Positions 42,001 through 62,996 of a stretch of DNA of 64,000 nt are shown here, one piece after another. Position 1 is the stretch's first letter, and each line of letters opens with the position of its first letter. The stretch covers positions 43,061 through 107,060 of the forward strand of contig CAIZSE010000160.1 of assembly GCA_903935585.1 (NCBI GenBank), given 5' to 3'. The DNA is from an uncultured Burkholderiales bacterium. GTDB taxonomy: Bacteria; Pseudomonadota; Gammaproteobacteria; Burkholderiales; Burkholderiaceae_C. A program made the position numbers and the translations under genes. Below the pieces are notes generated by a model. It made no database searches. It worked only from the letters and a program-made list of their open reading frames with translations, and had not been told where the DNA came from.

Positions 42001-45000
42001 CGTCCGGACTGGCTGACCGCAGCCAACACCGATCGCATCACCGTCAGCGTGGCGGCGCCGGCCAGTGGCACGCGCGCCGCGGTCAATCTGGGGTTTGATG
42101 CCAGCGGCAACCCGGTTGCCACCCTCTTCAATGCAGGCTCGGGCTATACCGGTGTACCGGTCATCACGCTCACCTTGGCCGACTCGGTCAGCTTGACCGG
42201 GGCCAATAACTTCAGCGGAACGCTGTCGATCGGCAACGCCGCCAGTGTGGTGGTGCGCGATGTCGATGCACTCAGCCTGGGTACGCTCAATGCCGCTGGC
42301 GCCGTGGCCCTGACAGCCGGCGGAGCCATCACCAGCACCGGCGCGGTGCAAATCGGCGGTGAACTCACGCTGGACACGCGTACCAGCGAAGTGCAGCGCA
42401 TCAGCACGGGCACACACACCGGTGGCACTTACACCCTGACGGTGCAGGTCCCAGTGGCGGGCGCCAGTCAGACCAGCCACACCACCGCAGCTCTGGCCCA
42501 TGACGCCACAGACGCGCAAATACAGTCGGCCCTGACGAGCGCCCTGGTCAGTGTGCAGGGGGCCGTGGTGAGCGTCAGCAGCAAGGATGTTCGCTTCAGC
42601 GGCAGCCTGGGCGGCATCGACCTGTCAAGCATGACCCTGACCAGCAGCCTGAGTGGCGGCAGCGGACAGGGCGTGAGCCAGTTAAGCGCCGGCTCCAGCG
42701 GCAACATCACGCTGGACAACATCAACAACAGCATCGAAGGCGATGTCACGGTGGCCGGTGGTAACGATGTGCGGATCCGCTCCATTGGCGGTTTGCACAT
42801 GGTGTCGGCCCGCATTGGCAACAACCTCTACATCGAGGCCATGGCACCCGTCTCGGGTGAGTCTCAGGGCGTACGCAACAACGATGGCTGGGAAGTACAG
42901 GGTTGGACGCAAATTGAGGCCGCTGGCCAGGACGTGGTCCTCACGGCAGACCACCAATTTGTGGGTGCGGTGAGCATCAATGCCCGCAACGTGATCATCA
43001 ACGACATCGACGACATCGTTCTGGGCCATCTGAACATCACGGGCAGCCTGACGGTCATCGGTGGCGGCAACATCACTTTGGCCGCAGGGGGGGCTGTGGT
43101 GGTGGCTGGCCTGACCACGCTCACGGCGACGCAGGCCATCAACCTCGGTGGGACGGGCAACAATTTCAATGGGCTGGCCATTACCCAGGCGCAAAGCGCT
43201 TTGATCACGGACCTCAGTGGTTTGAACCTGGCTGGCGTCAATGTGGCTGGCAATTTCAGTCTGAGTGCCGCGGGTGACATCACCGACAGTGGTGCCACAG
43301 CCGTGGGTGGCGGCTTGGTCATGGCCGCTGGCGCTGGCAGTGTGACCCTCGACGCAGGGCTGCGAGCCACCGGCAACGCCAGCATCTCCGGTGGTGCCAT
43401 CAGTCTGGGACAAACCACGGCGGGCGGTGACCTCAGTGTCACGGCGGGTGGTGCTGTGCTGCTGGCCAGCGGGGCGGCGGACCTACTTTCCGTGGCGGGC
43501 AACTTCGTGCTGAGCGCGGGTGGGGCGGTCAGTGATACGGGCGCGGTACAAATTTCGGGCACGACGACCGTCAACGCCAGCGCACAGGCGGTGACCCTGG
43601 ACAGCGTGCGAAACGACTTCACAGGCACTTTGAGCCTGACGGCAGGCAGCGCCAGCCTCACCGATGCCAACAGCCTGAGCTTGTCGGCCACCGTGGCTGG
43701 CACCATTGCGCTGAACACTGGCTCGGCCTTGAGCCTGGGGACGACTTTTGCGGCCGACTTGAGCATCACGGCAGGGGGTGTCCTCACCGATACGGGTGCA
43801 CTCACAGTCTCGGGCACCACCACCTTGAGCCTGGGTGGCGCCGATGCCACGCTTGACCATGCCAGCAACAACCTGGGCACATTGGTCGTCAGCAGTGCCC
43901 GCCATCTGAGTTTGACCGATTCGAGCGGCCTGGTGCTGGGTGGCAGCGCCCTCGGTGGTGACCTCGCCTTGCGCCTGGGCGGGGCCCTCACACAGGCGGC
44001 CAGTGCTGACCTCACCGTGGGTGGCAGTACCTCGATCACGACCCACAGTGGCCAAAGCATCACGCTGGACAACATGAACGGTACGCAATCGCGCAACGAT
44101 TTCGTGGGTGCGGTCACCATCGTCAGCGGCAACCATGTCAGCCTGAGTGACCGCAACGCACTGAACCTGGGGGCTTCCAGCATCAGCGGCAACCTCAGTG
44201 TGACCTCTGCCGGATTGCTGTCTGACAGCGGTGCTCTGCTGATTGGCGGCAGTTTGAGCCTTGATGCGGGCAGCAGCGACATCGTGCTGGACAACGACAA
44301 CACCCTGGGCGGCTCGGTCAGCGTGGTCAGTGCCCGCAATCTGAGCCTGAGCGACAGCAATGCCCTGTCGCTGGGTGATGTCACGCTGAGCGGCAATTTG
44401 ATTTTTATGCTGGGCGGCACGCTGTCACAAAGCAGCGGTGTGGCCAGCCTGAAGGTGGCTGGCAGCAGCGAAATCGGTGTGGCCAGCGGCAGCGATGTGT
44501 TGCTGGGCAACAGCATGGCTGGAGGCGCACTCAACCGCTTTGGCGGGACCGTGTCGGTTGACAGCGGCGCGCGCGATGTGAGCTTGAGCAGCGACGTGGC
44601 CCTGGACCTGGGCAACATCACGGCGAGCCGCGACCTCAGCGTTTTGGCCAATGCGGCGGTCAGTGACACTGGCCGACTGAATATTGGCGGTCATTTCAGC
44701 GTGAGCGCTGCCTCGGCAGCAGCCACCCCAGTGGCGCAGAACATCGTCATCGACGGTAATGGCCACGCTGTCAGTGGCACATTCAACGTCAGTGGCGCGC
44801 AAGTCACACTGCGCGAGAACGCTGCCATGCAATTAGGGGTCATCAACGCAAGCGGTAATCTGACCCTCACAGCGGCAGGGGCGATCACTGGCAGCAGCGC
44901 CATCACGGCGGGTGCGGGCACCCGCATCGATGCCGCCGGCTACGCTGTCTCCCTGAGCAATGCGGGCAATAACTTCACCGGAACGGTGACCGTGGTGTCT

Positions 45001-48000
45001 GCCGCCAGCATCACGCTGGCCGATGTTGATGCATTGAGCTTTGCCGGTGCCGCCATCGGTGCCAGTGCCGACCTCAGTCTGACCGCTGGTGGTGTGCTGG
45101 CATTGCTGGGCAACGTCAGCAGTGACCGTGACATGACGCTCAATGCATCGAGCGTTCAGATCGGTCAGACCACCGTAGCAGGCCATCTGATTGCGAGCGC
45201 CAGCAGCGGCGCGATCACCCAAAATGCAGAAACGGCCTTGCGGGTGGGCGGCAGCACCACCCTGAGCGCTCAGACCTTGACCCTGGCCCATGCCAGCAAC
45301 AGCTTTACCGGTGCGGTCTCACTTTCGACCAGCAGCGGCGCTGTGACCGGTCACGTTAGTCTGCGCAGTGCAGGCTCGCTGCAGTTGGGGGCTTCCAGCG
45401 TCCAGGGAAACTTGAGCTTGCAGGCAGATGGTGCCATCACCCAGAGTGGCGCTTTGCAGGTGCAAGGCACGACCAGTGTGGCCGTGGGTGCGACCAACAG
45501 TGTCACGCTGTCCAATGCAGGCAATGATTTGACCGGCGCCCTCAGCGTGGCTTCGGTGCGCAATCTGACATTGAGCGACCTGAATGCCCTCACTCTGGGC
45601 TCAGTCAGTGTCTCGGGCAATCTGAGTCTGACCACGGCCAGCCACATCAGCCAAGTTGCGGGCGCGGCGCTGAGCGTGAGCGGCACCAGCACGCTCAACA
45701 GTTCAATCGTTGGTGACATCGTCCTGTCCGAATCGACCAATTACTTTGGTAACGGGGTGGTCATCGCGCAGGCTCGCAACGTCACGATGGGTGCTGAAGG
45801 CGGCGTACACATCATTTCGGCCAACGTGGCGGCCAACTTGCAGATCACCTCCACATTGGCCAACGACAGCTCGATTGGTGTGAGAAACAGCCAGGTCTGG
45901 GTGATCGGCGGCAACATCACGATCAATGCCACCGGCCAGAATGTGACGCTGACCCAGCCGCATGATTTCCAGGGGGTGTTGAGTATCAACGCCAACAACG
46001 CCACCATCAATGATGTGAACAATCTGGTGCTGGGTACGGTGGTGATGAGCGGTAACCTGCAGGTGTCGGTCGGAGGTCATTTGAGCGTTGCCAATGACGG
46101 CAGTCTCAGCGTCTATGGCAACACCAGTTTGCAAGCGGGTGGCCGCATTGTGCTGGGTGACACCACCATAGGCGCCTTCAATTCGGCAGCCAACCTGAGC
46201 CTGATCGCTGGCGCGGCAGATGGCATCAGCCAGGATGCGGGCAAGCTGCTCAAGGTTTATGGCAGCACTTCACTTGTGGCTGGCAGTGCCGGCATCGTGC
46301 TGGCCAATGCCAATGGCAGCACGGCCTTGAACGACTGGGTGGGGCTGGTGAGCGTGGCCAGCGCAGGCGTGGTCACCTTGCGCGACAGCAACGCGTTGCA
46401 GTTGGCGGGCAGCTCAAGCGATGCCATGAGCCTGACGACTGGCGCTGGCGCTGGCATCAGTCTGGGCACCGTCACCGTGGGCACCTCGGGTGCCGCTGCC
46501 AACCTCAGCTTGAGCAGCGGCTCCGGCATCACGCAGACCAGTGGTTCGGCGCTCACGGTCTATGGCAGCAGCAATTTGAGCGCCTTGACCAACATTACGC
46601 TGGCCAACCGCAATGGAGCGGTTGCGCTCAATGATTTCGTTGGCAGCGTCCATGTGGCTGCTGCGCAAGATGTGCAGCTGGCCGACAAAAACGCCCTGGG
46701 GTTTGCGGCGCAGTCGGTCAGAAGTCTGGATGTGGCGGCAGCGGGCGCGCTTGGTCTGGGGCCGGTGACCGCCAGCGGCTCGTTGTCGGCCAGTGGCAAT
46801 TTCACGCTGACTGGCAACTTAAGCGCCCAGTCGTTGAGCCTGGTCTCAAGTGCTGCGCTCAACATGGCCGGGTACTCCCTGAACGCTACCGACAGCGCGG
46901 GCAGCGTGCTGTTGCGCGCCCAGGGCGACATCACGTTGGGACGCATTCGGGCCCTGAATGGTGATGTCACCATCGACAGCCTGGCCGGCACCGTGCAGGA
47001 CGGTTTGCTGAGTGATGAGCGTAATGTGGCCACGGGTGGCGCTGTGTCGATCAAGGCTGGCAGCACAAGCCTTACCGCCAGCACCATGGCAGTGCGCCTT
47101 TGGAGCAGCCTGGGCACCACGTTTGCAGCGGATGCGCCGGGCACACTGGATGTGATGGCGGCAAGCATCAATGACCTCAGCGCCAATAGCGGTGTGACCG
47201 TTGGCATTGGCAGCGGCAGTGGCAGCATCTTCACCGGTGTGCTGTCGACGGCGGGTGATCTCTCGCTCGATCTGGGCAGTGCCGGCATCACCATGGCCGC
47301 CGGTTCTGCCCTGCGCGCGGGCGGCAACCTGAGCTTGAGCGCCAGCGGCGCGCTCACGCTGGCTGAGTTGAGCGCTGGACAAGTGGTGAGCATCACCACC
47401 AGCGCAGCGATCACTGCGCTGTCGGACGTTGACACCCAGACAGCCGCAAATATCAAGGGAGCGACCGTGTTGCTCAGCGGCGCCGCCATCGGCAGCAGTG
47501 TCCAGGCCTTGCGCATTGATGCGGTGGGCAGCGGCTCGACGGCGGGCGTCATTCGTCTGGTGAACACGCCCAGCACGCCGACAGCCGGTGACGCTTATCT
47601 GGCCATCGTCACTGAGCTCAATGGCAGTGCCCGCCGCACCGTGGAGCTGGGGACCAGCAGCGATGATTGGGCGGTTGGCGGCCTGCTCCAGCTCAGCGCC
47701 AGCACTGCCAACTTGAGCTTCAAGGGCAACATCATCGCAGGCAGTGTGGACATCGAAGCGGCACAGGGTTCGTTGACCATGAGTGACGGCAAGACCTTGC
47801 AATCGACCGGCAACATAGAGTTGGCCGGTGCAGCTGGCGTTGGTCTGTCGCGTGTGGTGGGCAGCAGCACCGATGCGAGCCAGTTGATCTTGGTGCGCAG
47901 TGATGCCGGGTTGATCTCGGACCTGAGCGCAGACGAACTGGCCAACATCAGCACTGCCGGCGACCTGCGCCTGAGTGCGCGCGCCATCGGGGCCAGTGGC

Positions 48001-51000
48001 AGCGCCGACATCGATGTGCTCGCGGCTCGCCTGCACGAAATGACGGCCACCACCGGTGCGGTGTTCCTCGATGCCTTGGGCAGCAGCCAAACCTGGGTCG
48101 GGACGGTCAGCGCCGCCGGTGCATTTGACCTGCGTGTTTCACAGGGCGAGGCCCTGTTGGCCGGTCAGATCAGCGCCGGACTGATCAACCTCGACGTGGC
48201 GGGTCATATTCTGCAGGACGACGGCATGGTGATGGTCACCGCTGGCACTGCCAGCCTGCGCGCCGGTGGCGACATCGCTTTGGCCCGATTGCTCGGCGGC
48301 AACGGCAGCGTGACCTTCAGCGCCATCGGGGCGGTGCTTGATGCATCCACCTCGAGCGCCGCCAACATCGTCATGGGCACGGGCTCCTTGTCCATAGAGG
48401 CGCAGCGCATCGGCGCAATCGACAATGCTTTTGACATCGATGCCGGCAACATCACCCAAATCAAGGCCAACGAAACCTCCACGTCCGCCAGCGCCATCCA
48501 TGTGTCTTCGACCCGCTTTGGTGATGTCACCACGCTTGGGCGTCTTGAGACCGTGGGCCAGGCGCAATGGCTTCAGACCACGGGTCACCTGGCGCTCACC
48601 GGTGCCGTCAGTGCAAGTACGCTGAGCTTGCAAGTCACCGGGGGAGACCTCAGGCAGAGCGCTGGCAGCTTGGTGGTCACCAGTGACTTGGCTTTGCAGG
48701 CCTCTGGAAACATGGTGCTCGCTGGCATGAGCAGTACCCATGGCAATATCGGTTTGGTTGCTGGCGGCGCGATATTGGATGGGACCGCCAGCGCCGAGGC
48801 GGTTCTGCTGACCACGGCCGCGGCCGGCAAGTCGATTTCCTTGCAAGCGGGCAGCGGCATCGGCCTGGACGACCAGAGTGGCGACCTGGAAATCAACACC
48901 GATGCCTTGCTGTTGGCCAGCACCTCGCAGGGCGGTATCTACCTCAACAGCGTGCGCAGCCTCACCGTGCACGAGGTCACAGCCGCCGAGCAGGCCAGCG
49001 TACGCTTGAGCAGAGGCTCCCTGACCCTGACGGGCTCGACATCTGGCCGATCGGTTCAGATCGCGGTGGCAGCCGGGGCATTGTCGATGCAAGCCAATGC
49101 AGTGGTGCTCAGCCAGTCGGGCGTCAGCCTGGCGTCGGCACAGGGCATGGACATCACCCGAGTGCTGGCATCCGGACCGAATGCCCAAGTCAGCCTGAGT
49201 GCTGGTGGACTGTTGCGGGATGCCTCGCTGATCGAGCCAGGCGAGCTGGGTGGTTGGAACATCGAGGCCAATGGCTCTGTGTCGCTCTCGGCCCTGGCCA
49301 TCGGAGAGATCAGTAACAGTTTCGATGTCAAGACGACCGAGCTGAGCGGTAGCGCGAACAGCGCCGGGGCCTGGCTCAATACGGGCCATTACGACCCCGC
49401 TGGCGGCACCATTGCGCTGACGGCCGATGCCATCAGCGGCTCGGGGCACCTGAACATGATCTTGCTGACGGGCGATCTGCTGATCAGCCAGAGTTTCTCA
49501 GCCAGTACGGTGGACTTGCAAGCCCTGAGCGGCAGCATCCAGATGAGCGACGGCGTGGTGTTGAGCGCCGTGGGGAACATGAACCTGGTCTCCGGGGACG
49601 ATATGGTGCTGTCTCGTCTGGTGACCAACACCGGCCGCGTCACTTTGACCGCTGGTGGCAGCATCATCGATGGCTCGAGTTCCGAGTTGGCCAACGTCAC
49701 GGGCACACAATCGGGCGCCAGCTTGGAGATGAACGCAGCCCGCATCGGCAGCGACGTACCGGTGGTGGATGAGCGCCAGTTCATTGACCTGGGCGGTGCC
49801 ACGGGTGGGAGCTTCGTGCTTTCGCTGACAGTGGACGGGGTGATCCGCAGCACCGAGGCCATTGTGTTCAGTACAGGTGTGAGCGACACGCAGACGCTGC
49901 GCGATGCGCGCATCGCGCAGGCACTCTCCGCACTGGGTTTTGCGGGTGCCACCTACAGCGTTGTGTCTGGCGAAGTCACCTTTGGCGGTTCGCTGCAAAA
50001 GCGCGATATGCCCACCCTGTTGCTCGAAGGCTCGGCCTTAACCGGTAACACTTCGCCCCCACTGATTGTGGTGACCCAAGAAGGCGGCGTGCCGGGTGAC
50101 ATCAACCTGAATATCGCGCGTCTGGCCCAGGTCCGGGGCGGGGCGCAAGGGGTGTATCTGCAATCTGAGCGCAGCCTTGAAATGGGCAGCCTGAGCATCA
50201 GCGGCGACCTGGTCGTCGAAGTGGGCAGTGGTGATCTGGTGATCACCGCATCGCAAAGCGCCCGCAACCTGAGTTACCAGGTGCTGGGCGGGCAACTGAC
50301 CATGAACGACGGTGCCGTGGCCACGGCGGCTGGCTCGGCCGACCTGTACGCCTACCGAGACCTGCGCCTGTCGCGCCTGGTCGTGGCTGGCAGCGCCAGT
50401 GGCAGCAGTGGGGATGCGCGGGTGGTCTCGGATTTAGGCAGCATCATCGACAACAGCTCTGGTGAGGGGCTCGACCAGGAAAACATCGTCGTCGCCCAGG
50501 GCAGTCTGACCCAGCTTAAGGGCCAGTCGGTGGGCTCGCGCTTTGTTGGCTCGGAAATTGATGTCGATGCGCAGCGCCTGGGCACCGTGCAGGCCAGTAC
50601 GGGGGGTGCCTTTGTGCAAGTCACCGGCGCTTTGGGCAGCCAGGTGAACATCACCGAGGTGCTGGCCAATGGCAATGGTGCGGATGTCGGCCTGAGCGTG
50701 ACCCTGGGCGGCGCCAGGGTTGATCGCCTGGCTGCCAGCGACCAGATCGGTGTTGCTGTCGAAGGCGCTGGCACCACCCCCCTGACTGTGGCCTTGAGCC
50801 TTGGTGAGGTCAGTGCCGGGGGCGATCTGACCTTGAGCAACAGCCTGGGCGATATCGTGCAAAGTGGCACCTCGACCTTCGTTCGTGCCGATGGCAATGC
50901 GGCCTGGACGCGTTTGAGTGCCGGTGGTGACATCGTGCTGTCTGTCAGTGGCAACGACTTTGCGAACCTGTCCATCACAACGGCCCGCGATGCGCAAGTG

Positions 51001-53700: not shown

Positions 53701-54027
53701 ATGAAAAAATCAACTGAAAACATGGACGATGTTGTCAACCAGGACTCATCCGCTGAAGTCGACAACGAGGCCAGCCGCAATGTTCGGGTCCGTTTTGATG
53801 ACCAGAAAATGACATCACACTATGCCAACGTCGCCAACGTGGGAATGAGCAAGGATGAAGTGACCTTGCTATTTGGTACCAACCAGACATGGGGGGCTGT
53901 GGGCGATGAGATCGTTATCCAGTTGTCCTCGCGCATCATCATGACCCCCTCGGTGGCCAAAAATTTTGTGGCCACTTTGGGGCGTGTGCTGGATGAGTAC
54001 GAGGCCAAAATCGGAAAAATTGTTTAA
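53701..54027 (+). CDS. Small DUF3467-type protein
   Basis: A 108-residue protein without signal peptide or membrane segment, predicted cytoplasmic. The first ~30 residues are acidic and probably flexible. The rest ('VRFDDQKMTSHYANVANVGM', then 'VTLLFGTN', then 'LSSRIIMTPSVAKNFVATL') fits the DUF3467 family: a 'YAN' motif followed by a beta strand ending in FG, an 'SRIIM' strand and a C-terminal helix 'LGRVLDEYEAKIGKIV'. The family is usually about 100 residues and has no established biochemical role that I know of. A strong AGGAG at 9-base spacing supports the ATG. It lies 24 bases after the giant gene and 12 bases before the TolC-type gene, so it may be a chaperone, targeting or assembly factor for giant-protein export. 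That function is inference. Confidence 0.82.
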   Translation: MKKSTENMDDVVNQDSSAEVDNEASRNVRVRFDDQKMTSHYANVANVGMSKDEVTLLFGTNQTWGAVGDEIVIQLSSRIIMTPSVAKNFVATLGRVLDEYEAKIGKIV

Positions 54028-54039
54028 CCGGTAGTCACC

Positions 54040-55650
54040 ATGAAAACACGCAGTCCGGCGATGAAAACCATGGCCATATTGACCCGCAGCGCGCTGCTGA
54101 CAGGCTTGTGCCTGCCATGGCTTGCTGCGGCGCAAGGCACTGCTGGCGGCAGTTCGGCGGTCTTGCCCGTCGTGCAGGCCGGTGAACAAGGTCTGACAGT
54201 CAACGCGTTTGCCAGCATGCTGGTGAGCTCGGATGAGTTGGTGCGGGCTCAGTTGCTTGAAGCGGCCATTGCAGAACAAAGTGTTCGAGGTGCCAAAGCC
54301 GTTTACGAACCTTTTTTCACCACCTCCCTGAACCGGGATGGAAAATTGCTACCCACCACCGCGGAGGAGTATTTTTCACGCGGCGGTGGGGCGAGCGGCA
54401 CATCGAGCCCTGTGCCCTACGAGTCCCAGGTCACACAGTTCAAGACCGCAGTGGCCCTCAAGGGCAGCAGCGGCGCAGACTGGGAGCTGTCTTACAACCT
54501 GGACAGCATTGTGAACTCACTGCAGCCCAAGCTGGGGGGCAATTACATCAGCCCCGAATACCGTGGCTCACTGGGCTTTTCGCTCACGCAGCCGCTGCTG
54601 CGTAACTTTGGCCGTGACGTCACTGAATCAGGCATTCGCATCGCTGAACGCGAGCAGACGATTGCCAGTGAAACGGTGCGGCAGATGACTGCCCAGCGAC
54701 TGAATGAAGGTTTGCAGACTTATCTGTTTGTGCAGCGCGCCCAGCAGCGTGTGCGCTGGCGTCAGCAGGCCCTGAACTTGGCGCTGCAGCTTGAACAAGA
54801 AATTTCCAGGCAACAGTTGGCGGGACTCAAGTCGAACAACGAGCTGACTGAAGTGCGTGCCACATTGGCCCTTAGGCGTGTGCTACTGGCTCAGGCCCAG
54901 CAGGACCTTGAGGAGCAACTCAATTCGCTTCAGGTCTTTTTTTCGGCCAATCCCAACAACATGGTCAACCCTCAAGGCAGCCGCTGGATACCATCCGACG
55001 AACTGAGCTCTCCAGCGCCTGATTACGCCGACAGTCTCAAGATGACGGATGCGCAGACAGCCTTTGCACAGCGGCCCGAGACACGGGTCATCCGTCAGCG
55101 CATTGAGCGCGAAGAGTTTCGGCGGCTGTTTGCCAAAAATCAGACCGAACCGGAGCTCAACCTCAAGCTGCGTTATGGCAAGGAAAGTCTCATGGACAGG
55201 CCGCTGCCGATCAACCAGTACCTGAACGGAACAACCCCTTACAACGCCTGGGGCATCGGGGTGACTTTTCGCATCGGTCTGGACGGCGATGCCCGCAAGG
55301 ACAGCGAATACCAGACAGCGGTGTTGCGCAAAAGTCAGGCCGAATTGTCCCTGGGCGCGACTCAGCAGCGCATTGTCAATGAACTCCAGGGCATGAAAGT
55401 GGTGCTGGAGCGTGCCATGCAGCAGGCTGCCAGGCAGGCCGAGGTCGTCACGGCCCAGAGCGACCTGCTGACAGCCGAGCGAAGGATGATGGCTGAGGGA
55501 CAAAAATCCCTGCTCGATGTGCTGCGACGGGGGATCGAGTTGGCCTTGGCTCAAGAAGCGCTGACCGATGCCATCGCACAAGTGAACCGATCAAGTTATG
55601 TTGCGTCTCAAGTCAATGGTGGCTTGCTGGCACGTTTTAGACTGGAGTAA
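54040..55650 (+). CDS. TolC-type outer-membrane efflux/secretion channel
   Basis: A 536-residue protein, within the size range of the outer-membrane efflux protein family. An N-terminal signal peptide is visible (basic start, 'ALLTGLCLPWLAAAQG'). The ATG at 54061 (residue 8) would give an equally good, shorter signal peptide. Family features include 'LTQPLLRNFG', the long alpha-helical coiled-coil segments of about residues 195-305 and 430-520, the 'QRPETRVIRQRIE' segment after the first half, and near the C-terminus 'AEGQKSLLDVLRRGIELA', which is characteristic of TolC homologues. TolC trimers form an outer-membrane barrel and periplasmic tunnel that docks with HlyD-type adaptors. Here it is encoded directly before such an adaptor and downstream of the giant gene, so its likely cargo is the giant protein. 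No partner ABC transporter is in the window. Confidence 0.92.
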   Translation: MKTRSPAMKTMAILTRSALLTGLCLPWLAAAQGTAGGSSAVLPVVQAGEQGLTVNAFASMLVSSDELVRAQLLEAAIAEQSVRGAKAVYEPFFTTSLNRDGKLLPTTAEEYFSRGGGASGTSSPVPYESQVTQFKTAVALKGSSGADWELSYNLDSIVNSLQPKLGGNYISPEYRGSLGFSLTQPLLRNFGRDVTESGIRIAEREQTIASETVRQMTAQRLNEGLQTYLFVQRAQQRVRWRQQALNLALQLEQEISRQQLAGLKSNNELTEVRATLALRRVLLAQAQQDLEEQLNSLQVFFSANPNNMVNPQGSRWIPSDELSSPAPDYADSLKMTDAQTAFAQRPETRVIRQRIEREEFRRLFAKNQTEPELNLKLRYGKESLMDRPLPINQYLNGTTPYNAWGIGVTFRIGLDGDARKDSEYQTAVLRKSQAELSLGATQQRIVNELQGMKVVLERAMQQAARQAEVVTAQSDLLTAERRMMAEGQKSLLDVLRRGIELALAQEALTDAIAQVNRSSYVASQVNGGLLARFRLE

Positions 55651-55657
55651 GCGAGTC

Positions 55658-56482
55658 ATGAAGCCACAAAACGCGCAGACCTGTGCCCGCCTGATCTTGC
55701 TGCATGTGCTGGCCGTTGGCGGGGTCTTGATGGGTGAGGCTCAGGCAGAAGTCATACGGGGTGTGACCCGGTGTGCGGCAGACCTCCAGTTGTCTTTTGC
55801 ATTGCCTGGACGCATTGCGCAGACGCTGGTCAGGGAGGGTAGTTTTGTAAAAAAAGGAACCGTTCTGATGCAGTTGGACCGGTCTGCAGAAGAAATCGAC
55901 GTCGCGCGCAGGCGTGTTCAATGGCAGGGTCAGGCCGACTTGATGATCGCCCAGGCCCGCATGGAAACAGCCCAAAAGCAGTTGGAGGCAGCACGCTTGA
56001 TCTTTAACGAGAACCGGGGAATCAGCCAGGAAGAGTTACAAAACCGTGAACTCGCCGTGCGTTCTACCCTCGGCGAACTGGAGAGGGTCAGGACACTCAA
56101 GGAGACCGAGCGACTGGATTACCTGGTGGCCACTGAAAACCTTGAACGTCGCACGCTGACCGCCAACACACAGGGCATCGTCACCCGGTTGATCAAGCAG
56201 ACCGGTGAAAGTGCTCAGGCCTACGAGGCCGTGTTGCGCCTGTGCGATCTCAGTCGCATCGAATTCATGGCCCATGTGCCTGCAGAGCTGGTTGGTCGCC
56301 TGCGCGAAGGTCAGTCCATTCAGGTGACGGTGGGGCCGACATCCTTGAACGTGAACGGCAAGGTGAGCTTTGTCTCACCAGTCATCGACCCCGCCAGCGG
56401 ACTGCGTGAAGTCAAGGTGTATTTGATCCAACCGCCAGCGTCGGTGCGGCCAGGGGTAAGCGCTTCGCTGGAATTGAAGTGA
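55658..56482 (+). CDS. HlyD/RND-type periplasmic adaptor (membrane fusion protein), short
   Basis: A 274-residue protein. I chose the ATG at 55658 because it follows the TolC-type stop by 7 bases, has GGAG at 55644-55647 and starts a good signal peptide ('LLHVLAVGGVLMGEAQA', cleavage around residue 30). An upstream in-frame extension would overlap the TolC-type gene. The mature protein has the adaptor layout: a first lipoyl-like half ('FALPGRIAQTLVREGSFVKKGTVLMQLD'-type segment, residues ~45-75), a coiled-coil hairpin (about 83-165), a second half ('LTANTQGIVTRLIKQTGES'), and a beta-barrel ('RIEFMAHVPAELVGRLREG') ending in 'GLREVKVYL' and 'VRPGVSASLELK'. It lacks an obvious membrane anchor. 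It probably bridges the TolC-type channel and the inner-membrane parts encoded just downstream. Confidence 0.9.
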   Translation: MKPQNAQTCARLILLHVLAVGGVLMGEAQAEVIRGVTRCAADLQLSFALPGRIAQTLVREGSFVKKGTVLMQLDRSAEEIDVARRRVQWQGQADLMIAQARMETAQKQLEAARLIFNENRGISQEELQNRELAVRSTLGELERVRTLKETERLDYLVATENLERRTLTANTQGIVTRLIKQTGESAQAYEAVLRLCDLSRIEFMAHVPAELVGRLREGQSIQVTVGPTSLNVNGKVSFVSPVIDPASGLREVKVYLIQPPASVRPGVSASLELK

Positions 56483-56516
56483 GGCAGTTGCTGCCTGCCT
56501 GCGCGGCCCTGTCAGC

Positions 56517-58670
56517 ATGAAACGCACCTTCTTTGACCAGTGGCATCGTATCGCCTCGCTGAGGGTGGGTCTGCGTCCAGGAATCGTGGCCCGTTTGCAC
56601 CACGATTGGCATGAACCCTGGTATGTGCTGCACCAAGCTTCACATGCCGGCTTCTTCAGGCTTTCGCCCGATTCTTACCGCTTTGTGTTGCAGCTGAACC
56701 CCGCTTGCACGGTCGATGAAAGTTGGCGTCAGGCGGTGCAGATCAGCCCCGAGGTAGCGCCAGGCCAGGAAGAAGCCTACGAATTGTTGTCGGCCCTTTA
56801 CCGTAACAACCTGTTGTATGTTGAAGGTGGGGTGGACGAGGACAAACTGGCGCAACGGCACCTGCAAAAAAAGAAAAAGCCGTGGGCTAACCGTTTGTCC
56901 GAGTTGCTGTTCATGCGCGTTCCCTTGTGGGATCCCGAGCCCTGGCTCAAGCGGCACCAGGCATTTTTTGCGAGCGTGTGGCAATGGCCTGCCGCTTGCC
57001 TGGCTGTGGCGGTGATGGCTTGGGCGATTTTGGAGTTCGTGCTGGCCGGACCCCGTGTCTGGAGCCAGGCCCAGGACATTTTGCAACTGAGCAACCTGTT
57101 GCCTTTGTATCTGGCCATCTTCGTCAACCATCTGCTGCATGAGATGGCGCATGCAATAGCCTGCAAGCACTTTGGCGGTCAGGTTCGAACGATGGGCGTG
57201 ATGCTGCTAATGTTCACGCCATTGCCCTATGTGGACTTGTCCTCGAGCTGGACGTTTCGTGACCGCTTCAAGCGCGCTTGGGTGGGTGCTGCCGGCATGG
57301 CAACCGATCTCTTGGTGGGGGCCTTGGCCACCATCGTCTGGGCTTACAGTCCGCCAGGCATGCTCAATGAGTTGGCGTACAACCTCATGTTTTCGACGGC
57401 GGTGTACACCTTTTTGTTCAATATCAACCCCTTGATGCGCTTTGACGGCTATTACGTGCTGTCCGATCTGGTGGGCATTGCCAATTTGCACGAAGCGGCC
57501 AAACAGCAATTCAACCGCTGGTGGTGTCAAAAAGTGCTGGGCCAATTTCCTGACAGTCAGCATGAGTCACTCAGCGCCCGGCGCCAATGGGCGATGATGT
57601 TGTTTTACTTGACGTCCAATGTGTACCGTTTGGCGGTGATGTTGGGCATTGTCCTGTTCGTTGCCGACCAATACTGGGGCTTGGGTCTGGTGGTCGGTTT
57701 GGCTTTGATTTACAGCACTTTTTTGATGCCCATGAAGAACCTTTGGCAACCTTTGCGCAATCCGCTTTTTGTCGATCAGCACAAACGCAAGATCAGGATC
57801 ACGAGTGGGTTGCTCATGTTGCTGATGGCCGCGTTCCTTTGGCTGCCATTGCCTGACAGTCGTGTGCTGCGTGGCGTGGTGGAGGCCAGTCAGAACACCG
57901 TCCTGTATGCGCAAAGCAGCGCCCGTGTCCTTAAAATTCATGTGAAGGCCGGCCAATGGCTTGCCACTGGACAGTTGCTGGTTGAACTTGAAAATCCGGA
58001 GCTGATGGAGGAATTGCAGGCCGTGGCAGCGCAACTGCGACAGACGCAGGCACAAGAGAGCAAGGCCATTTTTGAAGCTTCGGTTGACCTGAGGCCTATT
58101 CAGGACAAATTGAGCACCTTGCTGAAGGCCCAGTTGCATTTGCAAATGCAGGCACAGGCGCTGCGCATCGTGGCCCCCCACGAGGGTGTGTGGAGCAGCC
58201 AGGACATTCAGTACCTGGCAGGAACCTGGCTGGCACGCGGCAAAGAAATCGGCAGGGTCATCGACGAGCGCCAGCACGTTTTTTTGGGTGTTGTGAGGCA
58301 GGAGGTGGCGTTGAATCTGGATGTCCTGAATGCGCAGGATGCGCAGGTCAGGATTGAAGGTGAGCGTGCATTGGCGCACCGTGTCAGCCGTCTGACAGTG
58401 ATGCCCCATTCGCAGAAAAATTTGCCATCTGCCGCTCTGTCGCCCATGGCTGGTGGGGATCAGGCGGTATCGACCAAAGACCAAAGTGGTAGACAAGCGC
58501 TGGAGCAATTTTTTCTGCTCAGAGCCATATTGACGGATGACACGGCACAAAGCCGGGCTTACCGCAACAGCCGCTCAGGCTGGATTCGACTGCAGATGCC
58601 CGCCAGACCCTTGGCACCTCGCGTGCTGGAGGTGGTGCAGCAGTTTTTCCAACGGCGTTACCAGGTTTGA
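56517..58670 (+). CDS. PqqD-like / M50 zinc metalloprotease / HlyD-like membrane fusion protein
   Basis: A 717-residue protein. Residues ~35-115 ('FRLSPDSYRFVLQL', 'LSALYRNNLLYVEG') look like a PqqD/winged-helix peptide-binding domain. Residues ~155-445 hold about seven membrane segments. The M50 (site-2 protease) active-site motif HEMAH is at 208-212, and a second motif, NPLMRFDGYY, starts at 304, with D310 as the expected zinc ligand. After the last membrane segment a HlyD-like barrel-sandwich follows: 'QSSARVLKIHVKAGQWLATG', a short coiled coil, 'IVAPHEGVW' and 'HVFLGVVRQEVAL'. The motifs are intact, so it may cleave a membrane or signal sequence, or the fold may serve as an export scaffold. 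The start ATG lies 34 bases after the adaptor gene; the stop is 2 bases before the preferred start of the SecA-like gene. Proteins of this architecture are found beside peptide and efflux export genes. Confidence 0.87.
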   Translation: MKRTFFDQWHRIASLRVGLRPGIVARLHHDWHEPWYVLHQASHAGFFRLSPDSYRFVLQLNPACTVDESWRQAVQISPEVAPGQEEAYELLSALYRNNLLYVEGGVDEDKLAQRHLQKKKKPWANRLSELLFMRVPLWDPEPWLKRHQAFFASVWQWPAACLAVAVMAWAILEFVLAGPRVWSQAQDILQLSNLLPLYLAIFVNHLLHEMAHAIACKHFGGQVRTMGVMLLMFTPLPYVDLSSSWTFRDRFKRAWVGAAGMATDLLVGALATIVWAYSPPGMLNELAYNLMFSTAVYTFLFNINPLMRFDGYYVLSDLVGIANLHEAAKQQFNRWWCQKVLGQFPDSQHESLSARRQWAMMLFYLTSNVYRLAVMLGIVLFVADQYWGLGLVVGLALIYSTFLMPMKNLWQPLRNPLFVDQHKRKIRITSGLLMLLMAAFLWLPLPDSRVLRGVVEASQNTVLYAQSSARVLKIHVKAGQWLATGQLLVELENPELMEELQAVAAQLRQTQAQESKAIFEASVDLRPIQDKLSTLLKAQLHLQMQAQALRIVAPHEGVWSSQDIQYLAGTWLARGKEIGRVIDERQHVFLGVVRQEVALNLDVLNAQDAQVRIEGERALAHRVSRLTVMPHSQKNLPSAALSPMAGGDQAVSTKDQSGRQALEQFFLLRAILTDDTAQSRAYRNSRSGWIRLQMPARPLAPRVLEVVQQFFQRRYQV

Positions 58671-58672
58671 GC

Positions 58673-60754
58673 ATGTCACTTGAATCCAAGACACTGGAGC
58701 GGCTCTTGGCTAGGGGCCGCCTGAGCCCAGACCTTCCCAGTGCATGGGCCGAAGGAGATGCTTCACAAGCCGAACCTTCTGTCGCCTTGCGGGTGCTGCA
58801 AAGCCACGGGCTGGAGCACAAACCCACTGCGCTCGACCGCGGGGCAAAGTGGGGGCTGGCCTGGCTGGGTCGATGGGTGCGACCACTGGGTCGGTTGGGC
58901 CGGCTCGCGCATGCCGTGCAAATGCAGTCAAGCTTGTGGGCGCAGTGCGACACACATTTGTTCGATCAGGCCATTGTTCAGTGCAAGGCCCGTTGCCGCA
59001 TTGAGCGCGGCAAGCCGGAGCACCGGCAGGTCTCAGAGGCTGAGCGCCAAGCTTTGTCTCTGGTGGCAGAGGCTGTGCGCCGGGTACATGGCTTTTCGCC
59101 CCATGCTGAACAGCTGGTGGGTGCGCTGGCCCTGCTGGAGGGGCGGATGACCGAAATGGCAACAGGGGAGGGCAAAACCCTCACCGCCGCCATGGCCGCC
59201 ATTGTGGCCGCTTGGCGCGGCTTGCCTTGTCATGTGGTGACCTCCAACGATTATTTGGCAGCCAGAGATGCACAGATAGGGCAAGCCTTGTTTGGCCTGT
59301 GCCAAGTTTCGGTGGCCAGTATCACGAGTGACACGCCGCCCCCAGCGCGTTCCGCTGCCTATGGGCATGACATCGTTTACACCACCGCCAAGGATTTGCT
59401 GGCCGACCACCTGCGCGATGGACTGGCCTTGGGGCGGGGGGCTTATCGCACGCGTTTTTCACTCAGTGCGGCGCGACAGGATGGGCGAGCATCGGTGCAA
59501 GGCGTGGTGATGCGTGGCATTTATCAGGTGATTGTCGATGAGGCTGACAGTGTGCTGATCGATGAGGCGGTGACGCCGCTGATCATCTCAGCCCAGCATC
59601 CGGACGCCTTGCTGGAGGAGGCTTCGGTCCAGGCCGTTGAATTGGCGCGCAGCTTGCAGGAAGGGCGAGATTTCAGGCTGCAACGGGCTCTGCGGCACAT
59701 TGAATGGACGCCTGAAGGACGTGCTTTGGTGCAAGAGGTGACACAGGGGTTGCCCGCCTTTTGGCGGCGTCAAGATCGGGCGCAAGAGCTGATTCAGATG
59801 GCGCTTTATGCCATGCACCTGATGGTGCAAGACCAGCACTACGTGGTGGAGCAAGAAAAAATTATTCTGGTCGATGAGCTGACAGGCCGATTGGCCCTGC
59901 AGCGCACTTTGTCGCTGGGCATGCAGCAGGTGCTGGAAGCCAGTTTGAGTATTCCCGTGTCTGCGCCCACGGAGGTTTCGGCGCGATCGAGTTTTCAGCG
60001 ATTTTTCAGGCGCTTTGAACGCTTGGGGGGGATGACCGGCACCGCCCGCGAAGCGCGTCATGAATTTGCCCAGGTTTATGGGCTGAGTCTGGTGGCTGTG
60101 CCGACCCATAAGTCGGTGCAGAGGCAAGTTTTGCCGTTAAGGGTGTATGCGGCTGAACAGGAAAAATTCGAAGCGATTGCGCGTGAATGCGAGGACATCC
60201 TCCAGCAAGGGCGAGCGGTGCTTATCGGGGTTCGCAGCGTGCGCACCAGCTTGGCACTGGCACCTTTCATTACGCAGCGCCTGGGGCAGGCTAACATCCA
60301 GATCCTGCATGCCCTAGAGCATGAAAGGGAGGGTGCCATCGTGGCCCGAGCAGGGCAAGCTGGCATGGTGACGATCGCGACCAACATGGCCGGTCGCGGG
60401 ACCGATATCGCACTTGACCCGCAAGTGCGTCAGCGGGGTGGCTTGCATGTTGTGGTGGCTGAAGTCAACGACTTTGGCCGCATTGATCGCCAGCTTGTTG
60501 GGCGTTGTGCCCGGCAAGGCGATCCGGGTTCGGTGCGCTATTTTGTCTCTGCCCAAGATGAGCTGTTCATGCGCATGCTGCCCAAGGGCGTGTTGCAGCT
60601 CTGGCGACGCAGCCTGTCGGGTCAGCCCGCTTTGCAGCCGATGGTGGCGCACGCCATGATTTTGTGGGCGCAGGGCATGGCACAGCGGATGGCCTTTCGC
60701 CAGCGCCAAATGATTCTGAAGCAGGACATTGAAATTGAAAAGGACGGATTTTGA
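58673..60754 (+). CDS. Shortened SecA-like translocase ATPase
   Basis: A 693-residue protein, compared with about 900 for housekeeping SecA. SecA landmarks are clear: 'PHAEQLVGALALLEGRMTEM' with Walker A GEGKT at 165-169, 'TSNDYLAARDA', Walker B VDEADS at 288-293 followed by 'LIDEAVTPLIIS', 'VDELTGR' at 400-406, 'GGMTGTA', 'TIATNMAGRGTDIAL' and 'GRIDRQLVGRCARQGDPGS'. The two motor domains are therefore complete. The cross-linking domain between 'LIIS' and 'VDELTGR' is short (about 95 residues). The chain ends about where the scaffold helix begins, so the wing domain, two-helix finger and C-terminal zinc tail are absent. Walker A is about 60 residues further from the N-terminus than in E. coli SecA. 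ATG 58673 is preferred over TTG 58667. It is probably the motor of a dedicated export system, not the cell's essential SecA. Confidence 0.93.
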   Translation: MSLESKTLERLLARGRLSPDLPSAWAEGDASQAEPSVALRVLQSHGLEHKPTALDRGAKWGLAWLGRWVRPLGRLGRLAHAVQMQSSLWAQCDTHLFDQAIVQCKARCRIERGKPEHRQVSEAERQALSLVAEAVRRVHGFSPHAEQLVGALALLEGRMTEMATGEGKTLTAAMAAIVAAWRGLPCHVVTSNDYLAARDAQIGQALFGLCQVSVASITSDTPPPARSAAYGHDIVYTTAKDLLADHLRDGLALGRGAYRTRFSLSAARQDGRASVQGVVMRGIYQVIVDEADSVLIDEAVTPLIISAQHPDALLEEASVQAVELARSLQEGRDFRLQRALRHIEWTPEGRALVQEVTQGLPAFWRRQDRAQELIQMALYAMHLMVQDQHYVVEQEKIILVDELTGRLALQRTLSLGMQQVLEASLSIPVSAPTEVSARSSFQRFFRRFERLGGMTGTAREARHEFAQVYGLSLVAVPTHKSVQRQVLPLRVYAAEQEKFEAIARECEDILQQGRAVLIGVRSVRTSLALAPFITQRLGQANIQILHALEHEREGAIVARAGQAGMVTIATNMAGRGTDIALDPQVRQRGGLHVVVAEVNDFGRIDRQLVGRCARQGDPGSVRYFVSAQDELFMRMLPKGVLQLWRRSLSGQPALQPMVAHAMILWAQGMAQRMAFRQRQMILKQDIEIEKDGF
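60740..60744 (+). promoter_or_regulatory. Ribosome binding site supporting a TTG start
   Basis: AAGGA lies 6 bases before TTG 60751, inside the end of the SecA-like gene. The next in-frame ATG (60775) has no such site. The TTG overlaps the TGA stop at 60752-60754, a layout typical of translational coupling. Confidence 0.6.
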
Positions 60755-62607
60755 ACGCTGATAAAGATGCGCTGATGGCTGGGTCCATGCGCCAATGGCT
60801 GGAACAGTTGTCAACTTGGCAAGGTCGTCCGGCTGACTACTGGCCCCACCTTGCACAGATGGCCCGCAGCTTGCTCGGCGCCCATGCCGTTGTGATTGGC
60901 AATTGGCAGCCCACTGACCAAAAGCAAAATCATTGGCAGGTCATGGCGGTTGATCCCATGCCGCCAGAGGCTGCGCAGGCCTTGCGATGGCTGGACGACA
61001 TGCCAGTGTCCCTTTGGCAAGAGGCGCGCCAGCAGAGCGTCGCTATCGGCCCCTCGACCACGGGACAATGGACCGCAGGATTGGCCAGTTTTCGTGTTCA
61101 GTCCAACCGTGAAATCTGCCTGCTGGCTGTGTTGCCCAAAAACTTGTTGGCAAGCGAGCAGGCGGGTCGGCTTCTTTCGGCTTTGGCATGGTCACCCGTC
61201 TTGTTCGAGCGTGACCGTCGGGCAAAGGTCGGCGAGCGCGATGCCACGCGGCTGGCACAAATCCTGGAAACGATCGGTCGCTTGCTGGAAGCCGAGAACC
61301 TGGATCGCGCGGCATTGGTGCTGGCCAATGACATGGCTGAGCGTTTCGCCTGCGAGGCGGTCAGTGTTTGCTGGCGCTCACGAGAGGGTTTGACGCTGCG
61401 CGCCATCAGCCACACCGAAAAAGTTGACCGGCGCAGCGAATTGACCGCCTTGCTTGAAGATGCAGGCGAGGAAGCCCTTCAACAGGCGCAGGAATTGAGT
61501 TGGCCCGGCCAGGACCCGCTGCTTCAGCCGGCCCACCATCGTTATGCGCAGCTGCAGCAACCGGGCTACCTTTATACCTTGCCGTTTGCACAGTCGGCTC
61601 AGGGTGAGGCGGCGCGTCATTGGGGTAGCCTGAGTCTTGAAAGGCAGAAGATGCCATTCACACAAGCCGAGCAGTGGGCCTTGCGCCTGTATGCCGACAT
61701 GGCAATGGGCCCCTTGGTGAGGCTGCACGAGGGCTCACGCGCGCTGCCCGTTCGGTTGTGGCGGGAACTTCAGCGAAGCTTGCCCGCCGTCCTGAAACCC
61801 CAAACCCTGATGGGTCGCAGGCTGGGGCAGGTTCTGGCGGCGGCCATGGTGCTGATCAGCCTGGTGCCGTTGCCTTATTCCGTCACGGCAGGTGCGACGG
61901 TCAAAACAGACACCATGGCTTTCATGGGTGCGCCTTTTGATGGTTTTCTGGAGTCCAGTGAGGTGCAACTGGGTGACCAGGTTCAGCCTGGACAGCCGCT
62001 GTTTGCCATCAGTACGCGAGAGTTGATGCTGGAGCGCGCCAGCATTCAGGCCGAAATATCGCAGCTCAGCCGCGAGGCCGAAAAGCGCAGGGCGGCCAAC
62101 CAATTGCCCGAAATGCAGGTGGCGGAGGCGCAGGTGGCACAAGCCCAAGCTAAGCTGCAGCAGACGCAGCAAAGGGTACAAGCGGCTGCGGTCATATCAC
62201 CTATGAAGGGTGTAGTCATTGAGGGGGAACCGGGCAAAAACCTCGGTGGCGCGGTCCGGCGGGGTGACAACATCATCAAAGTGGCCGCACTTTCGGCCCT
62301 CTATGTTGAAGCGGCCGTGTCAGAGAAAGACCTTAGTCGGATCCTTGTGGGTCAAAGTACCCGCTTGACCTTGCTGGCACAACCTGCAATGACCTATGCG
62401 TTAACCGTCAAACGCATCATTCCGCAAGCATCTGTCATCGAAGGGGAGAACGCTTTTCCGGTAAGGCTGGACTTGGATGCAGCTGCCAGTGCCTGGTGGC
62501 GTCCTGGCATGACAGGCGTCGTCAAGATTTTCGTGGGCTGGCGCCCATTGGCTTGGATTGCGACCCATCGGTTAATCGACTACCTGCGCCTCACGCTTTG
62601 GATTTGA
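60751..62607 (+). CDS. GAF-domain protein fused to a HlyD-like periplasmic adaptor
   Basis: A 618-residue protein. About 370 residues precede a single membrane segment ('LGQVLAAAMVLISLVPLPYSV', residues ~368-388). This cytoplasmic part includes a GAF-like region at about residues 165-325 ('LAQILETIGRLLEAENLDRA', 'ANDMAERFACEAVSVCW', 'WGSLSLERQKMPFTQAE'). After the membrane segment is a HlyD-like adaptor: 'GFLESSEVQLGDQVQPGQPL', a coiled coil at about 430-480, 'AAVISPMKGVVIEGEPGKNL', 'YVEAAVSEKDLSRILVG' and a final 'WWRPGMTGVVKIFVG'. GAF domains bind small ligands or act in signalling, so the protein could couple a cytoplasmic cue to envelope assembly. I prefer the TTG start because of its ribosome binding site and overlap with the SecA-like gene; ATG 60775 is the alternative. 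It ends the six-gene set. Confidence 0.88.
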   Translation: MNADKDALMAGSMRQWLEQLSTWQGRPADYWPHLAQMARSLLGAHAVVIGNWQPTDQKQNHWQVMAVDPMPPEAAQALRWLDDMPVSLWQEARQQSVAIGPSTTGQWTAGLASFRVQSNREICLLAVLPKNLLASEQAGRLLSALAWSPVLFERDRRAKVGERDATRLAQILETIGRLLEAENLDRAALVLANDMAERFACEAVSVCWRSREGLTLRAISHTEKVDRRSELTALLEDAGEEALQQAQELSWPGQDPLLQPAHHRYAQLQQPGYLYTLPFAQSAQGEAARHWGSLSLERQKMPFTQAEQWALRLYADMAMGPLVRLHEGSRALPVRLWRELQRSLPAVLKPQTLMGRRLGQVLAAAMVLISLVPLPYSVTAGATVKTDTMAFMGAPFDGFLESSEVQLGDQVQPGQPLFAISTRELMLERASIQAEISQLSREAEKRRAANQLPEMQVAEAQVAQAQAKLQQTQQRVQAAAVISPMKGVVIEGEPGKNLGGAVRRGDNIIKVAALSALYVEAAVSEKDLSRILVGQSTRLTLLAQPAMTYALTVKRIIPQASVIEGENAFPVRLDLDAAASAWWRPGMTGVVKIFVGWRPLAWIATHRLIDYLRLTLWI

Positions 62608-62996
62608 GGAAAGAGGTATCTTCTTTTACCAGGCCCTTGGAGCGGCCATTGCGGATGGGCGGCCCCTCATGCCCAGCGCACAGGGAGGCGGGGTTTCAAT
62701 CATGTTCAAGTCTTGTAATGGCTTTCGTTTGTGCAAAGAATGATCGAATTTCAGGCATTTCTTGACGATGGCATTCAAGGTTTAAGCGGCGAGGGCTTTA
62801 CAGACGTTTATCGCTCGGACTTTTCCTGTTGGCTCACACAATCTCTTGACGCCCTTGGTTCAATCAATCTGCCTTGTTCTGGATAAAGTCAGCTTGTTGC
62901 AAGTCCCTTGTCCATAATTATGAATTCAGAAGTGAGGCGTTTGGCTGTTGGGGCTGTCCTCAGAAGATTCATTTGGCTGGTATTCAGGAGACTTTC
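62608..62996 (+). other. Intergenic region between export gene set and prpE; nothing convincing
   Basis: The 389 bases contain no gene I can support. A 48-codon open frame (62740-62886) has no ribosome binding site and no recognisable product. There is no strong hairpin followed by a T-run; the best pairing (TGGGC/GCCCA near 62,665-62,684) has a 10-base loop and no T-tract. The second half is AT-richer, as expected of a promoter region. A CATAAT at 62913-62918 could be a -10 box for prpE, but no -35 fits at the right spacing. Confidence 0.5.
62986..62990 (+). promoter_or_regulatory. Ribosome binding site of prpE
   Basis: AGGAG ends 6 bases before the ATG at 62997 and fixes the prpE start. 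Confidence 0.8.

Follow-up and report, generated by a model that had tools for sequence, protein, structure and literature searches.

A six-gene module with a secondary SecA ATPase and an M50-HlyD fusion as a probable dedicated exporter of giant LEPR-XLL proteins

The giant gene and the six-gene module

We analyzed a 64,000-nucleotide stretch of DNA from an uncultured Burkholderiales bacterium (GenBank assembly GCA_903935585.1, contig CAIZSE010000160.1, positions 43,061 to 107,060 of the forward strand; hereafter the window), most of which is occupied by the gene for a giant protein that bears an N-terminal LEPR-XLL motif. Directly 3' of the end of this gene (position 53676) lie six genes on the same strand, with gaps of at most 34 bases or with overlaps, an arrangement described in the first-pass annotation of this DNA and confirmed by the open reading frames and the Pfam matches. 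These genes, which we predict to form an exporter devoted to LEPR-XLL proteins, and their catalytic sites are as follows, together with the giant gene:

1..53676, + strand: gene of the giant protein, the presumed cargo (from the open reading frames of the window and of its parent contig)
53701..54027, + strand: DUF3467 protein of 108 residues (Pfam PF11950, 62.6 bits; cut-off 25)
54040..55650, + strand: TolC-type outer-membrane channel (Pfam OEP, 64 bits; cut-off 22)
55598..56482, + strand: short HlyD/RND-type periplasmic adaptor (HlyD_D23 55.2, cut-off 30; RND_mfp 101.5, cut-off 94.9)
56517..58670, + strand: M50-HlyD fusion, with an N-terminal domain, a membrane metalloprotease and a full membrane-fusion-protein fold
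57138..57152, + strand: HExxH zinc motif in the metalloprotease part, at residues 208-212 (H208, E209 and H212 invariant in 20 of 20 rows)
58667..60754, + strand: secondary SecA_DEAD ATPase (SecA_DEAD 248.1, cut-off 24.6; SecA_PP_bind 66, cut-off 23.5)
59165..59179, + strand: Walker A motif of the secondary SecA, GEGKT (the same in all 53 alignment rows)
60751..62607, + strand: GAF-like/HlyD fusion (HlyD_D23, 72.6 bits; cut-off 30)

The TolC-type channel has a Sec-type N-terminus (hydrophobic stretch 1.79), and a single membrane helix joins the parts of the GAF-like/HlyD fusion (hydrophobic stretch at residues 358-376). On the parent contig, the giant protein has 18,547 residues counted from its first ATG, which lies 1,968 bases upstream of the window (G000:C160:41093), and its first 656 codons are thus outside the window. 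Its N-terminus, MSRARSLPSAVRLEVLEQRILLSAD, makes it a member of the LEPR-XLL family, with the motif near the N-terminus and a score above the curated cut-off (NF012209.1, 26.3 bits; cut-off 17); the N-terminal LEPR-XLL sequence is MSRARSLPSAVRLEVLEQRILLSADLPV, and no other LEPR-XLL match occurs in the same genome. The leader is basic, ends in an LExRxLLSAD-type motif and is devoid of a long Sec-type hydrophobic core. More generally, in the 14 of 43 LEPR-XLL leaders that were measured, the hydropathy values range from 0.47 to 1.44, as against 1.79 and 2.51 in two Sec-type signal peptides encoded in the operon.

Conservation of the module and its association with LEPR-XLL proteins

Our locus set comprises 57 loci of the secondary-SecA type, namely the window and 56 fetched loci, some of which are ended by contig edges. 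The M50-HlyD gene is found upstream of the SecA gene, on the same strand and within 1 kb of it, in 56 of the 57, and in the remaining locus it is clipped by a contig end. Other neighbors of the secondary SecA gene are GAF-type/HlyD (50/57), HlyD (47/57), OEP (23/57) and DUF3467 (22/57) genes, and the exact six-part set is displayed by six of the 57 loci, including the window, in a sample where some loci stop at a contig edge. A motif scan detected no ABC (ATP-binding cassette) transporter motif in any of the 56 fetched loci. An upstream ABC exporter, which the first-pass annotation had singled out as a finding that would speak against its proposal, was likewise not found beside the module of the window, where the nearest ABC-type match is about 32 kb upstream in a 539-codon frame (C160:7759-9291). 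Frames of at least 1,250 codons occur in 34 of the 56 fetched secondary-SecA loci versus none of the 19 canonical SecA control loci, and chance clustering was rejected on the basis of these control loci.

As a cargo marker we used the LEPR-XLL family, whose detection does not rely on the exporter genes. Among 60 relatives, it is present in nine of the ten genomes with a secondary SecA versus none of the 50 without (Fisher 6.8e-10), and in the tenth SecA-bearing relative (G028) the module is adjoined by a frame of 2,999 codons or more. Across 349 genomes of the phylum, LEPR-XLL is found in 30 of the 36 genomes with a secondary SecA (one of them as a fragment) and in 11 of the 313 without (2.5e-28), for a total of 41 LEPR-XLL genomes. 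With both samples pooled, 38 of 45 secondary-SecA genomes have a LEPR-XLL match, such that the association of the module with giants that the first-pass annotation had anticipated is upheld and a routine occurrence of the module without giants is not borne out. The two genes are often physically linked as well: among the 55 LEPR-XLL frames found in genomes with the secondary SecA, 28 are at most 25 kb from the SecA gene, and 25 of these 28 share its strand. In the host genus, LEPR-XLL is present in six of seven genomes with a secondary SecA versus none of 29 without (3.6e-6). The nine SecA copies of this genus are, in our reading of the drawn 59-row tree, scattered over six or seven places among copies from other families (the printed group count of the tree contrasts two groups only). 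This tree omits two of the 56 fetched loci, L108 (broken frame) and L122 (fragment), and gives weak support to the split of the window's copy from that of G021; alignment A1 omits one of 19 rows, L011. Because the copies of the genus sit in separate places in the tree, the link between SecA and LEPR-XLL seems to have been kept through repeated transfer.

The two SecA classes separate cleanly in the relatives and the phylum sample: canonical proteins score at most 277 bits with the window's protein as query and at most 551 bits with the SecA profile, secondary ones at least 340 and at least 636 bits, respectively. One SecA fragment at a contig end (262 bits) was classed as secondary by its 50% identity, so that G128 is counted as a SecA carrier. 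The phylum search scored up to three candidates per genome, with 18 genomes rechecked. Outside the phylum, canonical-length SecA proteins reach 669 bits and we therefore classed by the presence of a second SecA per genome and by its neighbors. Among Planctomycetota, certain SecA proteins with lengths of 660-770 residues fell in neither class. The survey was repeated on 32 named genomes taken from the SecA-profile matches listed, which are mostly canonical SecA. At least 13 loci, of 80 from named genomes among the matches listed, combine SecA with M50, with carriers including Phycisphaerae, Opitutaceae, Roseomonas, Rubrivivax, Achromobacter piechaudii and Zoogloea, and seven of these 13 genomes have LEPR-XLL. 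Nineteen further genomes, chosen via other SecA matches listed, yielded LEPR-XLL in four (Aidingimonas halophila DSM 19219, a Rhodobacteraceae metagenome-assembled genome, Poseidonocella sp. HB161398 and Aestuariicella hydrocarbonica JCM 30134). All four were first chosen as controls, and each has a second SecA of 689-783 bits beside a canonical one of 534-546 bits; hence, all 11 LEPR-XLL genomes among the 32 named ones carry a secondary SecA.

The SecA-like ATPase and the M50-HlyD protein

By both sequence and fold matches, the SecA-like protein aligns only to residues ~11-607 of Bacillus subtilis SecA. It retains the motor and the preprotein clamp, with motor motifs that are invariant across the aligned rows, and is devoid of the portion past residue ~607, which by SecA numbering comprises the wing, the two-helix finger and the C-tail. 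A genome search recovered one SecY, on another contig, and no second SecY; membership of the SecA2-SecY2 systems was rejected on account of this single SecY. Apart from the module's own gene, the genome gave a single SecA match, which covers 70 residues and sits at the edge of a short contig (G000:C30:7238-7447); the housekeeping secA was thus apparently severed by the assembly.

In the M50-HlyD protein, the HExxH motif of the M50 part is invariant in all 20 alignment rows, as are additional N, P and D residues. Residues 39-396 match the daptide-type M50 family at 157 bits, below its cut-off of 300 (NF041824); this match includes the HExxH motif, and the protein of the window differs in being fused to a complete membrane-fusion adaptor. 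The first-pass annotation had read the N-terminal domain as PqqD, a label that finds no sequence support: PqqD is not among the 17 families matched by 51 members of the M50-HlyD set, and the 110-residue N-terminus in isolation matches no profile. The predicted structure has residues 16-103 as strands followed by helices, presumably the same order as in PqqD. Searches of the PDB with the model and with a profile matched the adaptor part alone, with no fold match to the N-terminal and membrane parts.

A SecA-less form and the size of the cargo

The M50-HlyD protein is present in 40 of the 41 LEPR-XLL genomes of the phylum versus 48 of the 308 others (1.0e-26), counts that take in a second, lower-scoring group and genes located away from LEPR-XLL (e.g., G200 and G111). 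This second M50-HlyD group was found in genomes without LEPR-XLL in the phylum survey. In five of the 11 LEPR-XLL genomes without a secondary SecA (G141, G386, G250, G096 and G123), M50-HlyD and further adaptor or channel genes lie near the LEPR-XLL gene, and the stretches fetched from these five contain no ABC motif; Pfam identifies HlyD, M50 and OEP genes in G386 and G141, and DUF3467 in G386. For the other six, the fetched surroundings of LEPR-XLL did not reveal an M50 gene. The M50 proteins of the SecA-less genomes are only 19-24% identical to that of the window. As SecA-less LEPR-XLL genomes exist, we dropped the idea of SecA as an essential part of the system, of which the M50-adaptor protein instead looks like the constant core. 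In genomes with the secondary SecA, 32 of the 55 LEPR-XLL frames are 5,000 residues or longer, versus none of 14 in SecA-less genomes (4.3e-5), a contrast weakened by contig ends and kinship. Since frames of this size occur only with SecA in the sample, this suggests that SecA may be a motor added for very long cargo.

Other features of the giant protein and of the neighborhood

The giant protein contains no cysteine among its 18,547 residues and displays the following repeats and domains:

22849..22953, + strand: RTX calcium-binding repeats, best stretch (Pfam HemolysinCabind, 43.8 bits; two stretches, one RTX region)
40177..40383, + strand: Big_13 Ig-like domain, best of four stretches (Pfam, 139.9 bits)
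44128..45552, + strand: DUF5649 repeats (Pfam, 208 and 143 bits; coordinates span the best stretch from each of two pieces, with 19 stretches overall)

A two-partner secretion or haemagglutination domain was not found in a Pfam search of five pieces covering the entire giant (E 0.01), and two-partner secretion was rejected on this basis. For the C-termini, we took 18 frame ends and set aside one short unrelated frame (L083). A comparison of the 17 long frames that remained found no motif common to all: an LADDx(L/I)D motif is shared by three (the window, at 53600-53676, L069 and L109) and an R(I/V)xW motif by five (L088, L093, L097, L107 and L121). The giant of the window is exceeded in length by a LEPR-XLL frame at G120:C115:112865, which has 19,427 codons. 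Directly before the giant gene and upstream of the window are genes for a histidine kinase and an OmpR-type response regulator, which are possible regulators (G000:C160:38135-40754). At 62874-63998 of the window, 3' of the module, is an acetyl-CoA synthetase-type gene that is ended by the contig end and has no evident link to it.

Predicted export pathway and its alternatives

Gene order, domain content, the co-occurrence and linkage with LEPR-XLL, the domain loss in SecA and the lack of an ABC motif together point to an export system dedicated to LEPR-XLL proteins, which we regard as well supported. In its specific form, we consider it probable that the six genes constitute an exporter that takes the adjacent LEPR-XLL giant out of the cytoplasm and releases it outside the cell; the SecA-like protein would be its probable inner-membrane motor and the M50-HlyD protein its predicted membrane core. 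The N-terminal leader with its LExRxLLSAD-type motif would serve as the export address. The M50-HlyD protein, perhaps along with the DUF3467 protein, would take this leader and cut it off in the membrane. The shortened SecA, devoid of the wing and of the two-helix finger that serve at SecY, would then push the chain in by ATP hydrolysis, and the M50-HlyD, HlyD and GAF-like/HlyD proteins would, with their periplasmic portions, link the membrane part to the TolC-type channel.

Several points weigh against this interpretation. We know of no M50 protein that is proven to act as a protein channel, nor of a SecA that forms a pore by itself, and the genome has a single SecY. The M50 label falls slightly under the Pfam cut-off (26.9 versus 27.2 bits), the invariant HExxH motif speaking in its favor, and the GAF label is weak (20.3 bits; cut-off 22.4). 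A LEPR-XLL match is absent in seven of the 45 secondary-SecA genomes and in six of the 13 named module genomes; the six such genomes in the phylum have their modules on contigs of 6-28 kb, and in one of them a clipped giant frame lies beside the module. Proximity to SecA is not shown for 27 of the 55 LEPR-XLL frames, with 24 on other contigs and three more than 60 kb away on the same contig. Conversely, 11 of the 41 LEPR-XLL genomes are without a secondary SecA, and the M50-HlyD count takes in the second group and the distant genes noted above. In 84 of the 349 phylum genomes no SecA, canonical included, reaches the threshold; moreover, the genomes are non-independent samples and frames may be clipped at contig ends. 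Finally, since two subgroups of giants have common short C-terminal motifs, a C-terminal export signal is possible.

The main rival is a two-step export, in which the SecA-like protein would act at the housekeeping SecYEG to deliver the giant to the periplasm, from where the M50 protein, the adaptors and the TolC-type channel would take it out. The retained motor and preprotein clamp and the lone SecY are compatible with such a path, and the SecA-less forms could use the housekeeping SecA; nevertheless, we hold it to be rather unlikely, as the portion of SecA past residue 607 with the wing, finger and C-tail is gone, the measured leaders have no long hydrophobic core and a chain of 18,547 residues free in the periplasm is hard to imagine. 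We see still less scope for the SecA-like protein being an accessory factor in targeting, unfolding or quality control, with a core of M50-HlyD and adaptors that is powered otherwise. The wider presence of M50-HlyD than of the secondary SecA in LEPR-XLL genomes (40/41 versus 30/41) and the SecA-less operons that have the remaining parts near LEPR-XLL genes would fit this improbable alternative. Against it, the SecA-like protein is the only ATPase encoded by the six module genes of the window, M50 lies within 1 kb upstream of SecA in 56 of 57 loci, frames of at least 5,000 residues are found only with SecA in the sample, and the divergent SecA-less M50 proteins may work differently.

The genome does encode proteins resembling the ABC components of type I secretion systems on other contigs, which makes another exporter for the giant possible and likewise counts against a dedicated module; the best of them (G000:C172:14161-15822, inside a 1,109-codon open frame) scores 626 bits, short of the 693 bits set as cut-off for the family. 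Together with the RTX repeats and the short C-terminal motifs of some giants, this could mean that the giant exits through a conventional type I system with an ABC motor, whose genes lie elsewhere, the local module being devoted to processing or another task. We regard this as very improbable given that the best candidate is below the cut-off and on another contig, that none of the 56 module loci has an ABC motif, that the giants share an N-terminal tag and the 17 long frames no single C-terminal signal, and that LEPR-XLL of the host genus accompanies SecA modules of several separate branches. In the dedicated-exporter interpretation, the first-pass proposal that SecA takes the place of the ABC exporter as the direct motor is plausible on sequence grounds, given the ABC-free loci, and is not universal, given the SecA-less LEPR-XLL genomes.

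Relationship to known systems

Type I secretion systems, such as HlyB-HlyD-TolC and the exporters of large adhesins, use an ABC exporter as the motor and recognize an uncleaved C-terminal signal on the cargo. The window shares with them a periplasmic adaptor, a TolC-type channel and a cargo with RTX repeats, and differs in having no ABC exporter among its six genes, a common N-terminal tag on the cargo and an M50 domain fused to an adaptor. Accessory Sec systems feature SecA2 alone or SecA2-SecY2, the latter exporting giant surface proteins. A second SecA-type ATPase and giant cargo are thus common ground; unlike these systems, the module of the window has a SecA without wing, finger and C-tail and a coupling to TolC and HlyD parts, and no second SecY was found in the genome.

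The closest counterpart is the locus described by Kamneva, Poudel and Ward in 2015: a secondary SecA_DEAD protein without all or most of the wing-scaffold domain is co-encoded with HlyD, M50, GAF-HlyD and sometimes OEP proteins, and without an ABC transporter (PMC4452313). The same source proposes SecA as the provider of the ATPase activity and the M50 protein as a possible membrane pore (PMC4452313). The second SecA lacking the wing-scaffold, the M50-HlyD, HlyD and GAF-HlyD proteins and the absence of an ABC transporter all recur in the window, and the first-pass claim of an undescribed composition falls with this publication, which already includes the ATPase idea. The terms giant, DUF3467 and LEPR do not occur in the main text of that paper in a term search. 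LEPR-XLL itself is on record as a label on a giant Vibrio protein of ~8,000 residues (PMC10868602) and on a Limnohabitans protein, and the passages of the two papers that name it tie no export machinery to it. To the extent of these sources, the machinery was already known (PMC4452313), and our analysis adds the cargo assignment, the candidate export address in the leader and the SecA-less form, none of which was found in the literature searched, a body of text that takes in few subscription journals.

Implications

How bacterial proteins of 10,000-20,000 residues are exported is an open question. The present analysis joins a motif, a set of giant proteins and the orphan module of 2015, and thereby provides a cargo along with candidates for the signal and for the motor, with the SecA-less form as a natural comparison for the purpose of that motor. 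Going further, we tentatively suggest, as a proposal that may well turn out otherwise, that the LEPR-XLL motif addresses its carriers to an as yet unnamed secretion system of Gram-negative bacteria, built around a membrane protease and the periplasmic adaptor fused to it; for very long cargo, this core would have recruited a stripped-down SecA that drives the chain directly through an M50-adaptor-TolC conduit without SecY or an ABC transporter. If true, this would be a distinct type of secretion, which horizontal transfer has disseminated along with some of the largest proteins of bacteria.

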